DNA of 64,000 bases from Geobacter sp. AOG1. GTDB lineage: Bacteria > Desulfobacterota > Desulfuromonadia > Geobacterales > Geobacteraceae. This document shows, piece after piece, positions 6,042-60,031 of this stretch (the stretch's first letter is position 1; each line of letters opens with the position of its first letter). The DNA lies in contig NZ_BLIZ01000001.1 of NCBI RefSeq assembly GCF_019972315.1, forward strand, positions 1,004,513-1,068,512, in the 5' to 3' direction. The position numbers and the translations under genes are program-made. Below the pieces are notes generated by a model. The model saw nothing but the letters and a program-made list of their open reading frames with translations, was not told the origin of the DNA and did not search any database.

Positions 6042-6752
6042 ATGATGGGAAAGGTCTGCCGCTACCTCGTCTCGCTTGACCTGGGGCTCTGGCTCATGGT
6101 CGGCGTCTTGCTGTTCATGGCGCTCGGCTCCTTTCTCAGCGGCGGGGAAAACGGAAGCTCCATCAACGACCTGCCGCTGTTCCTCTGGTTGCGGGAGGTG
6201 CCGCTGGCCGCTTCCTGGTGGCTCTGGGGGACTATCGGCCTGCTGGCCCTACTGGCGGTCAACACGGTTCTCTGCAGCATGGAGTCGCTCGGTAAAAAGT
6301 GGGAAAGGGGAAGTTCCCTGGTCCGCATCGCGCCCCAGGTCATGCACCTGGGGTTCCTGCTGATCATGGTAGCGCATCTTGTCAGCGCCAGAGGGAGCTT
6401 CAAGCAGGCGATGGAGGTGGGGGAGGGTTCGACCATCGGCTTTCCCAACGGGGGGGTGGTGCAGGTGGGGCGGATCGACTCAACCATCGGTCCCATGGGG
6501 ATGCCGACCGCTTTCAGCGCCCAGGTCCGGACCCTGGGCGGAGATGGGGCATTCGGGAGCATGAGCCCCAACCACCCCTTCTTCTACCGGGGGTTCGGGA
6601 TCTACCTGAAAGAGGTGGGATTCATGCCGGCGCCGGTGGCCCTGGTGGAGATCCATCGGGAACCGGGGGCGGGATGGGCGCTGGCGGGGGCACTGCTGTT
6701 TACGGCGGGGAATGTGGTGCTGCTGGCGGTCCGGGGGGGACGTTTGGTCTGA
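6042..6752 (+). CDS. ResB-like (cytochrome c biogenesis family) membrane protein
   Basis: 236-residue membrane protein with hydrophobic spans near residues 14-30, 58-78, 98-115 and 212-230. The N-terminal SLDLGLWLMVGVLLFMALGS, followed by a W-rich second span, resembles the start of ResB/Ccs1, which holds haem with ResC/CcsA during cytochrome c maturation. The large periplasmic domain of true ResB (total usually over 400 residues) is much reduced here to about 100 residues. The RIAPQVMHLGFLLIMVAHL segment contains a histidine in a membrane span. No ResC/CcsA gene adjoins it. I regard the family assignment as likely and the haem role as inference. The gene begins five bases after kup, and its stop codon overlaps the first base of repeat A1. 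Confidence 0.6.
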   Translation: MMGKVCRYLVSLDLGLWLMVGVLLFMALGSFLSGGENGSSINDLPLFLWLREVPLAASWWLWGTIGLLALLAVNTVLCSMESLGKKWERGSSLVRIAPQVMHLGFLLIMVAHLVSARGSFKQAMEVGEGSTIGFPNGGVVQVGRIDSTIGPMGMPTAFSAQVRTLGGDGAFGSMSPNHPFFYRGFGIYLKEVGFMPAPVALVEIHREPGAGWALAGALLFTAGNVVLLAVRGGRLV

Positions 6753-6912
6753 ATCGGTGAAGGGTGAGCGTTCCGTTCCGCTCAGAGTCCCCTCGCACCG
6801 CCGCTGTACGGCTCATTTCGCGCCGGTCGTTTGGCCGGCTCTGCTCAATTTTGCCCGCATCGGCTGGCTCTCGGGCACATTCGCTTTACGGAGCACTCAC
6901 CCTTCACCGATT
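6752..6912 (+). repeat. Family A structured intergenic repeat, copy A1
   Basis: 161 bp element with terminal inverted repeats AATCGGTGAAGGGTGAG and CTCACCCTTCACCGATT (perfect 17-bp stem) and inner hairpins such as GAGCG/CGCTC. A second copy lies at 59087-59248 with the same internal order (GTTCCGCTCAG, CGCCGCTGTACGGCTCATTTCGC, GGAGCACTCACCC). Both sit directly 3' of a gene and in its orientation. It holds no convincing open frame. Confidence 0.85.
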
Positions 6913-6920
6913 CAGGTACA

Positions 6921-6948: not shown

Positions 6949-7524
6949 TCATTTCACCACTATTATGGACTTTATCACCACCGGCACCGTCGGCACGTCC
7001 TGAAATCCCTTCTGCACACCGGTCTGCACCGCAGCTATCTTGTCCACCACGTCCATCCCGTCGATCACCTTGCCGAACACTGCGTAACCGTACCCTTGCA
7101 TGGTTTTGTCCCGGTGGTTGAGGAAGCCGTTATCTTTCACGTTGATGAAGAATTGGGAGCTTGCCGAGTCGACCACCATGGTGCGGGCCATGGCCAGGGT
7201 GCCACGCTGGTTCTTGAGGCCGTTGTCCGCTTCATTCTTGATGGGGTCGTTGGGCTTCTTCATGGTTATTTCCGGGGTAAAGCCCCCCCCCTGGATCATG
7301 AAGTTCGGGATGACCCTATGAAAGATGGTGCCGTTGTAAAAGCCGCTGTTGACGTAGGAGAGGAAATTCTTCACGGAGATAGGCGCTTCTTTTTGAAACA
7401 GCTCTATCTTCACGTTGCCGAGGCTGGTCTCCATGAGCACCACCGGATTTTTCTCCCCGGCGGCCAAGGCTGTCCCCCCCAGCAGCAGGGTACAGGCGAG
7501 AGTGAGCACGAGTTTCTTCAGCAT
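6949..7524 (-). CDS. Periplasmic cyclophilin-type peptidyl-prolyl isomerase
   Basis: 191-residue PPIase. An N-terminal signal peptide ([23 protein letters not shown]) predicts export to the periplasm. The mature part is a compact cyclophilin domain with [14 protein letters not shown] (catalytic arginine and FMxQGG) and [11 protein letters not shown], plus [15 protein letters not shown] near the end. The ATG at 7524 is preceded by AAGGAGG. The same frame remains open upstream into the methyltransferase gene, but that extension is an out-of-frame shadow and not a fusion. It probably shares a transcript with the methyltransferase gene 65 bases upstream. Confidence 0.92.
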
Positions 7525-7589
7525 TGCGATTCCTCCTTGTAAAAGTGTGAGTCTGTGCCGTGCCAGTATAGAAAAAGGGTGGGGGCTGG

Positions 7590-57675: not shown

Positions 57676-59070
57676 ATGTCCAAGGAATGCACAGGCGAGG
57701 GGACCAAGCTCTGGGGGGGGCGGTTTTCCCAGCCTACCGACAAGTTTGTGGAGGAGTTCACGGCGTCCATCGATTTCGACAAGCGGCTCTACCACCAGGA
57801 TATCCGCGGCTCCATCGCCCATGCCCGGATGCTGGGGAAGCAGGGGATCATCCCCATTGCGGATGTGGAGCAGATCGTCCATGGTCTCCAGGAAATCCTC
57901 CGCCAGATCGAGGAGGGGAAGTTCGACTTTTCGGTCTCCCTGGAAGACATCCACATGAACATCGAGGCGCGCCTCTCCGCCAGGATTGGCGAGGCGGGAA
58001 AACGGCTCCACACCGGCCGCTCCCGCAATGACCAGGTGGCCCTGGACATCCGCCTCTACCTGCGGGACGAACTGGTGGAGATATCCGCCTACCTGGACCT
58101 CCTCATCGATTCGCTCCTGTTCCAGGCCGAGAAGAACCTGGACGTCATCATGCCGGGGTATACCCATCTCCAGACCGCCCAGCCGATCCTCTTTGCCCAC
58201 CACATGCTCGCCTACGTGGAGATGTTCACCCGGGACAAGGGGCGGATGGAGGACTGCCTGCGGAGGATGAACGTCCTTCCCCTCGGGGCCGGCGCCCTGG
58301 CCGGGACCACCTTCCCCATCGACCGGGAGCACGTGGCCGAACTGCTCGACTTCCCGGAGGTTACCCGCAACTCCCTCGATTCCGTCTCCGACCGGGATTT
58401 CGCCCTGGAATTCATGGGGGGCTCGTCCATCCTGATGATGCACCTGTCCCGTTTCTCCGAGGAGCTGATCCTTTGGTCCACCAGCGAGTTCAAGTTCATC
58501 GACCTCTCCGATTCCTTCTGCACCGGCTCCTCCATCATGCCCCAGAAGAAGAACCCGGACGTCCCCGAACTGGTGCGGGGGAAGACCGGCCGCGTTTACG
58601 GCAACCTGATGGCGCTCCTCACCGTCATGAAATCCCTGCCGCTCGCCTATAACAAGGACATGCAGGAGGACAAGGAACCGCTGTTCGATACCATCGACAC
58701 AGTGAAGGGTTCGCTCAAGATCTTCGCCGACATGATCCGCGAGATGAAAGTGAACGCGGCCACCATGCGCAGTGCGGCGGGCAAGGGGTTCTCCACCGCC
58801 ACCGACGTGGCCGATTACCTGGTGCGCCAGGGAATGCCGTTCCGGGACGCCCACGAGGTGGTGGGGAAATCGGTGGCCTATTGTCTCTCCCACGGCAAGG
58901 ACCTGCCGGAGCTGACCATGGAGGAGTGGAAGGGGTTCTCCGCCATGATCGGCGAGGACATCTACGACAGCATCACCCTGGAGGCGAGCGTCAACGCCCG
59001 CCGCGCGACGGGGGGGACGGCCCTGGAGCGGGTGAAGGCGGAGATCGAACGGGTCAAGTCGGGGAGGTAG
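57676..59070 (+). CDS. argH: Argininosuccinate lyase
   Basis: 464-residue fumarase/aspartase superfamily enzyme that yields arginine and fumarate. [21 protein letters not shown] at the start, [37 protein letters not shown] and the mobile signature loop [19 protein letters not shown] with the catalytic serine are present. AGAAGGAGAT precedes the ATG. Last of the arginine genes in this window. argC, argJ and argA are not here. Repeat A2 follows after 16 bases. Confidence 0.97.
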
Positions 59071-59086
59071 CCGGCCCCTTGCTGCA

Positions 59087-59248
59087 AATCCGTGAGGGGC
59101 GAGCGCTCCGTTCCGCTCAGCGTCCCCTCGTGCCGCCGCTGTACGGCTCATTTCGCGCCGGCCGTTCGCCCGGCTTAGCTCAATTTCGCCTACAGCAGGC
59201 TGGCACTCGGACACATTCGCTCCACGGAGCACTCACCCCTCACGGATT
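59087..59248 (+). repeat. Family A structured intergenic repeat, copy A2 (after argH)
   Basis: 162 bp with terminal arms AATCCGTGAGGGGCGAG and CTCACCCCTCACGGATT. Compared with copy A1, two arm positions have changed on both sides so that pairing is kept (G-C to C-G, and A-T to G-C). One change leaves a C-A mismatch. Confidence 0.85.
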
Positions 59249-59281
59249 GAGGATAACTTTTTGCTGAACGGGATCAATGCC

Positions 59282-60031
59282 ATGGGCAGATTATTCGTGC
59301 TGACACTGCTGTTGACCCTCCTTGCCGCCTGCGGCCGCAAAGGAGGCCTCGTCCCCCCCGACTCCCTGGTGCCGGCCGCCGTCACCAACCTGCGGGCGGA
59401 ACAGAAGGGTGAGCAGTTCTACGTCACCTGGTCGGCCCCTTCGAGCGATGCGGGCGGGAAACGACTCAAGGACCTGGCAGGGTTCAGGCTGTTTCGCCGC
59501 GAGGTGCTCCCCCCCGAAGAGGACTGCGAGACCTGCCCCACCGCCTACCAACTCGTTCAAGATGTGGACCTGGAGTACCCCAAGGGGGTCCAGGTCTACA
59601 ACAATCTCTACATCTTCACCGATGCCAGCCTGAAAAACGGTACCACCTACCAGTACAAGCTGATCGCCTACAACAAAGAGGGTGCGGAAAGCGCCCCCTC
59701 CCGAGCCCGCAGCAAGAAAGTCGCCTCTCCCGCCGCTCCCCGGCTGACCGCGACATCCACCCCCACCGGCGTGACCCTGGAATGGCAACCGGCACCCGGT
59801 GCCGGGACGGACCGCGCAGGCTTCAACGTCTACCGCCGGCGGGGGAGCGACATCGCTACCCTCGCGCTTCTTACCCCCCAGCCGGTGAAGGGGAACCGCT
59901 ACGAGGACCTGCACGTCGATTTCGGCGTCACCTATACCTACATGGTGCGGGAAGTGGTCTCCGCCGCCGGCCAACTCGTGGAAGGGGCCATCTCCAACGA
60001 GGCGACGGGCGGGCAGGCGTTGCCAGAGTAG
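59282..60031 (+). CDS. Lipoprotein with LptM-like N-terminus and two fibronectin III-like domains
   Basis: 249-residue lipoprotein. The signal peptide ends in a lipobox (TLLAAC) and the first mature residues are CGRKGGLVPPDSLVP, close to the short LptM/LPAM motif (CGxKGPLxxP) that assists LptD assembly in enterobacteria. Two beta-sandwich modules of Fn3 type follow (about 38-145: AVTNLRAEQKGEQFYVTWSAP and TTYQYKLIAYNKEGAESAPS; and about 150-245: PTGVTLEWQPAPG and VTYTYMVREVVSAAGQ). A CETC pair lies in the first. Start ATG 59282 places the signal peptide correctly. Located between argH and the dap genes. Confidence 0.82.
   Translation: MGRLFVLTLLLTLLAACGRKGGLVPPDSLVPAAVTNLRAEQKGEQFYVTWSAPSSDAGGKRLKDLAGFRLFRREVLPPEEDCETCPTAYQLVQDVDLEYPKGVQVYNNLYIFTDASLKNGTTYQYKLIAYNKEGAESAPSRARSKKVASPAAPRLTATSTPTGVTLEWQPAPGAGTDRAGFNVYRRRGSDIATLALLTPQPVKGNRYEDLHVDFGVTYTYMVREVVSAAGQLVEGAISNEATGGQALPE

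Follow-up and report, generated by a model that had tools for sequence, protein, structure and literature searches.

A probable IS1380-moved MITE with a conserved, strand-specific folded core in Geobacter sp. AOG1

Two copies of a structured repeat, family A, are found in the 64,000-nucleotide stretch of Geobacter sp. AOG1 DNA analysed here (the window), each close to the 3' end of a gene. Is such a repeat part of its neighbour's mRNA, an RNA gene in its own right, or a mobile element? The sequence-only reading of this DNA had pointed to a discrete RNA of about 160 nt in the orientation of the upstream gene. The reading preferred here, to which a probability of roughly 60% is given, is that family A is a MITE moved by an IS1380-type transposase and that it carries a conserved core working as a folded strand, most likely of RNA, with a role at the level of the element. 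The relevant features of the window are as follows:

6042..6752, + strand: resB-like gene, its family named as in the earlier reading; its stop codon lies within the A1 terminal repeat
6748..6916, - strand (the strand with the conserved fold): copy A1, whole element, short form, 169 bp
6748..6767, no strand assigned: A1 left terminal repeat TCTGAATCGG and arm, including the TGA stop of the upstream gene at 6750-6752
6795..6874, - strand: A1 conserved core, short form, without the apical hairpin (covariance model R2, 41.3 bits, E 6.6e-9)
6897..6916, no strand assigned: A1 right terminal repeat, ...CACCGATTCAGG
6949..7533, - strand: peptidyl-prolyl isomerase-like gene, convergent with resB; family named from the sequence, start estimated from the translation
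57676..59070, + strand: argH; A2 starts 12 bp past its stop
59083..59252, - strand: copy A2, whole element, short form, 170 bp (blastn and model matches)
59130..59210, - strand: A2 conserved core, short form (covariance model R2, 44.4 bits, E 8.8e-10)
59261..60031, + strand: lipoprotein-like gene downstream of A2; listed with a TTG start, an ATG at about 59282 being likelier

Both copies lie where the sequence-only reading had placed them and contain the arms that it quoted, but the ends that it gave were slightly too narrow. Comparison with the IS1380-type repeats CCTGAATCCG...GGATTCAGG sets the true ends at 6748-6916 and 59083-59252, and for A1 the blastn and model matches agree. It was right that A1 starts on a stop codon: the resB-like ORF ends at the TGA inside TCTGAATCGG, and the terminal repeat thereby supplies the stop codon of this gene. 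A1 sits between two 3' ends, that of the resB-like gene and that of the convergent peptidyl-prolyl isomerase-like gene. The repeat is indeed structured, with fold z-scores of -8.4 and -7.6 for the + strands of A1 and A2 and of -8.8 and -10.0 for their - strands, and 0 of 200 shuffles were as good in each case.

Both are old copies, whose target duplications are not preserved; the AOG1 copies in general are of too great an age to show any. A1 is present at its locus in the sister genome G003; G001 and G002 have no element there, and the flanking sequence has diverged in them too. The A2 locus is occupied in G001, G002 and G003, and A2 is thus present in all four Geomobilimonas genomes. An inverted element centre, with flanks and outer arms unchanged, was seen between species at several loci: L016 versus L133, the L007 group versus L049, the L012 group versus L124, the L008 group versus L102, and A2 versus its counterpart at the same locus in G002.

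A genome-wide blastn search established that the family extends well beyond the two copies in the window. The AOG1 genome, a single contig of 3.68 Mb belonging to the genus Geomobilimonas, contains 17 matches longer than 110 nt and several partial ones, as well as one further full-length copy (2086355-2086550) recovered with the covariance model. This amounts to about 20 copies, and each of the four Geomobilimonas genomes examined has 18-22. Other Geobacteraceae mostly lack the family, with scattered positives in other genera and in another family, and the full-element model R1 matches 26 of 141 genomes of the order. The elements come in a short form of about 161-170 bp and a long form of about 190-198 bp that has an extra apical hairpin. 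The short form can arise in place, since one orthologous locus has the short form in G001 (L107) and the long form in G000 and G003 (L017, L134). The 29 nt absent from L107 lie between GATC direct repeats.

The classification of family A as a MITE is well supported, because it has IS1380-type ends, because a relative carries it with 5-bp target duplications and because another relative harbours an intact IS1380 element whose ends are the same. The 169/170 bp elements have paired terminal repeats and no transposase ORF, well within the size limit for MITEs of about 400 bp, and their ends (CCTGAATCCG.../...GGATTCAGG) match those of IS1380-family insertion sequences. Family A was recently amplified in the relative G066 (a MAG), where there are at least 40 copies with 92-100% identity. 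These elements begin CCTAGATTC and have the ends CCTAGATTCGGCAG...TTTTAGG. Exact 5-bp target duplications of the form NTNAN occur in 21 of the 23 copies that could be scored on both flanks, and every one of the 21 has T as its second and A as its fourth base. In the same genome, two element copies lie side by side (G066:C464:923-1121 and 1131-1318), one of them 93% and the other 74% like the query.

The relative G041 carries an intact 1692-bp IS1380 element with ends CCTGACTCCGTGA / TCACGGATTCAGG and ATATA flanking it on both sides. Its 461-aa ORF scores 298 bits on NF033539 (cut-off 180), and its ends agree with the Geomobilimonas consensus end CCTGAATCCGTGA. The IS1380-family element ISEcp1 has CCTAGATTCTACGT as IRL and ACGTGGAATTTAGG as IRR and is flanked by 5-bp repeats (PMC7864471). 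Family A shares with it the 5-bp, AT-rich target duplication and has similar terminal repeats (CCTAGATTC / CCTGAATCC ... GGATTCAGG), but it differs from IS1380 elements in that it has no transposase, a body unrelated to the transposase gene, and a conserved, covarying core. Movement of family A in trans would depend on a DDE transposase of the IS1380 family, similar to that of ISEcp1, whose insertions duplicate five bases, NTNAN, at the target. No IS1380 transposase was found in the AOG1 genome by the NF033539 search, and Y1_Tnp (RAYT) transposases gave 0 matches there and 0 in G066. For want of both enzymes, the AOG1 copies look stranded, and family A is apparently immobile in its own genome. 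The lack of Y1_Tnp matches also set aside a REP/RAYT system.

The placement of the repeat 3' of genes, which the sequence-only reading had noticed, is usual in Geomobilimonas. Of the 38 locus groups in this genus, 26 are found no more than 60 nt from a stop codon, mostly at 17 nt or less and in either orientation. This would suit a REP/ERIC-like 3'-UTR element that stabilizes, cleaves or insulates the mRNA of the preceding gene. However, the Geomobilimonas copies use both orientations relative to the abutting gene about equally, so that the orientation with the upstream gene, correctly described for A1 and A2, fails as a general rule. Moreover, the element has been inverted at the same locus between species, and the strand bias described below is independent of gene orientation. 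Just 2 of the 17 recent G066 insertions have a stop codon nearby, although such placement counts are indicative, as genes were called by a simple codon score and the Geomobilimonas and G066 lineages differ. An action on the mRNA of the preceding gene is thus highly improbable, and an antitermination role is disfavoured on the same grounds of orientation and strand bias. Family A is probably not a cis-acting part of a neighbouring gene's mRNA. The proposed discrete transcript of some 160 nt in the direction of the upstream gene found no support, given the use of both orientations, the same-locus inversion and a best-pairing strand that is the opposite one. The position next to stop codons is most likely due to the retention of harmless insertions, helped by the TGA of the terminal repeat. 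Targeting of stop codons was rejected as the main cause: NTNAN can include TGA or TAA, yet the recent G066 insertions are mostly elsewhere.

The body of family A forms one long hairpin with covarying stems and three conserved internal loops. The compensatory arm changes seen between A1 and A2 proved genuine: across 57 short-form copies, 32 of 52 pairs have changed on both sides, compared to 16.7 in shuffles, and in the long form 33 of 61 have done so (20.3 in shuffles). Of the short-form cells, 90.7% are paired versus 35-46% with slid partners, and a comparison of orthologous loci shows 52 pairs that have changed from one Watson-Crick type to another.

The stems are also asymmetric between strands. 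In the outer arms of the Geobacterales set, A.C exceeds G.U on the + strand by 118:37 (scored strand-neutrally), and more distant copies, taken as two sets with some members in common, give 42:16 and 37:20. Counted by locus group, the bias is 27 versus 7 (p = 8e-4), and it is the same whichever direction the abutting gene runs. It is weaker for changes within orthologous loci (A.C 90 : G.U 58, p = 0.011), and part of the total is therefore inherited. The recent G066 copies show no bias (12:13), which makes a general mutation bias unlikely. An A.C juxtaposition reads as G.U on the complementary strand, so the strand whose folding has been preserved is the reverse complement of that considered by the sequence-only reading. 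This reverse strand gives the more stable fold in 87 of 89 and 87 of 95 copies, by a mean of 17 and 9 kcal/mol, respectively, and its purine-rich loops (GGCGAAAUGGAGC / GCGAAAUGAGCC and UGUYUGARCCC / GGGYGAGUU) can, to judge from their sequence, form tandem G.A pairs. Three indications agree that this is the folded strand: the bias in wobble pairs, the folding energy and the purine-rich G.A loops. The active strand would accordingly be read opposite to the one first described.

Replication template switching keeps the arms of palindromes paired without selection, and such copying could have maintained pairing in family A after insertion. Family A might then be an ordinary IS1380-type MITE, a long palindrome with mobility as its sole function; the ends, the duplications and amplification in G066, the IS1380 element of G041 and the lack of strand bias among recent copies are all compatible with this. 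It is nevertheless unlikely, as it leaves unexplained the strand bias of the older copies, the conservation of loop sequences across families and phyla and the occurrence of the same core within differently ended MITEs. Covariation, loop conservation and strand bias support a core that acts as a folded single strand.

That strand could be single-stranded DNA in replication or transposition rather than RNA. Like RNA, DNA stably accommodates G.T wobbles and tandem G.A pairs (GCGAAAT/ATGAGC), and a DNA fold would be indifferent to orientation relative to genes, as observed. This option is somewhat unlikely, because DDE transposases act on double-stranded DNA and because neither the AOG1 genome nor G066 has a Y1 single-strand transposase. 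If the strand is RNA, each copy might encode a small RNA that acts in trans and is expressed from a promoter of its own, which would agree with the strand-specific fold and the long retention at orthologous loci. However, no promoter is obvious, free inversion and varied flanks speak against flanking promoters, and 20 diverged copies would be unusual for one sRNA, so that this possibility is rather improbable. The preferred reading of the family A body is that of a conserved, structured core working as a folded single strand, most likely RNA.

The core is captured by model R2, which covers 108 nt with the outer arms trimmed and is based on 47 diverse aligned sequences. In it, 26 of 29 pairs show compensatory change (16.3 in shuffles), the covariation score is 0.54 as opposed to 0.21 when shuffled and 0.07-0.11 when slid, and 93.6% of cells pair versus 36-42% when slid. 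R2 matches 46 of 395 sampled genomes of the phylum, and many genomes have at least nine matches. Matches to the core pattern, confirmed with R1, are also present in MAGs labelled Nitrospirae, Thermodesulfovibrionales and Nitrospinota; the core occurs in at least three phyla, Nitrospirota and Nitrospinota included. E-values of such purpose-built models are rough, but those of 1e-15 to 1e-27 leave little doubt. The window and 12 representative loci gave no match near or above the gathering score of any Rfam 15 family, the exact core strings had no match in the literature searched, and representative elements had no blastn match in phages, plasmids or E. coli. The model did not bear out the pattern matches in Pseudomonas, Furfurilactobacillus, Flavobacterium, Tidjanibacter and Planctomycetaceae, which were put down to chance. 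The pattern search returned a single viral match, at 1587-1616 of contig L345 (IMGVR_UViG_2667528109_000001).

The usual view of bacterial MITEs is that of insertion sequences reduced in size, whose interior is of little interest. In the present case, MITEs with unrelated ends and different duplication lengths have a conserved, strand-specific fold in common, which therefore persists independently of the transposase. The core is present in elements of 249-250 bp with CAGTNNTGTCC ends and the 9-bp duplications TGTCAAGAC and ATAAAAATT (L209, L233), in a similar element with an 8-bp duplication (L172), and in a 234-bp element with GTAACTRTTCA ends and the 8-bp duplication AATTTTTA (L412). Further core-bearing elements have other ends and less certain bounds. 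Duplication length is characteristic of the transposase, and since it differs between core-bearing elements, at least two transposase types, and probably three, move them, each of the other chassis types being represented by one to three well-bounded elements. The converse is found in G021, which we take to be Geobacter uraniireducens: high-copy MITEs with CAGCGTTGTCCGG ends had no core in the 800 kb sampled, where R2 found the core twice, neither time inside these repeats. Because their ends are comparable to those of core-bearing elements, chassis and core separate both ways.

What, then, does the core do? That bacteria of at least three phyla carry it inside several unrelated jumping elements suggests that the fold itself probably does something. 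Since the core outlives changes of transposase, it would serve the element or the host by something besides end recognition. Its role most probably concerns the element itself, with a fold that might aid multiplication or tolerance; this is favoured because the core persists across chassis changes while host copies drift and invert. More tentatively, and at somewhat below even odds, the core may be a mobile RNA-like module with three conserved purine-rich loops that gives an advantage to any MITE carrying it, across three phyla, for instance through interaction with a host protein that binds RNA or DNA. The benefit of a structured core to a non-autonomous element or its host thus becomes a testable question, and the covariance model can be used directly to annotate many repeats of Thermodesulfobacteriota, Nitrospirota and Nitrospinota that have so far had no explanation.

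Among known repeats, ERIC, Correia/NEMIS and REP elements differ from family A in their ends, taxa and targets, and to our knowledge no strand-specific core of this kind is known in them. They resemble it in being intergenic palindromes, often 3' of genes and transcribed within mRNAs (PMC10969869); REP differs further in that the AOG1 genome has no Y1/RAYT transposase. Multicopy sequences of Geobacter and Pelobacter are likewise intergenic, in some cases palindromic, and from related bacteria (PMC2700814, PMC2996986, PMC3543383), but the legends of those reports, compared by description, give other repeat units than family A. Chunjie, a 235-bp MITE of Geobacter uraniireducens (review PMC10969869), is like family A a short, non-autonomous, palindromic element of a Geobacteraceae genome. 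The CAGCGTTGTCCGG-ended repeat of G021 with its 9-bp duplications is probably Chunjie. It differs from family A in its ends and duplication length, and its copies in the 800 kb sampled have no core, whereas the core is present in similarly ended elements of other genomes. This high-copy, coreless repeat is about 225-235 bp long (among L416-L455), and a second high-copy repeat of G021 in the same set, about 175 bp with CTAGGAGCCTGTCGGACTTAGG ends, is also without the core. In G001, a second family (L376-L381) combines a near-consensus core with other arms and has CCTAAAAACGGCAGTTG ends in L377-L380.
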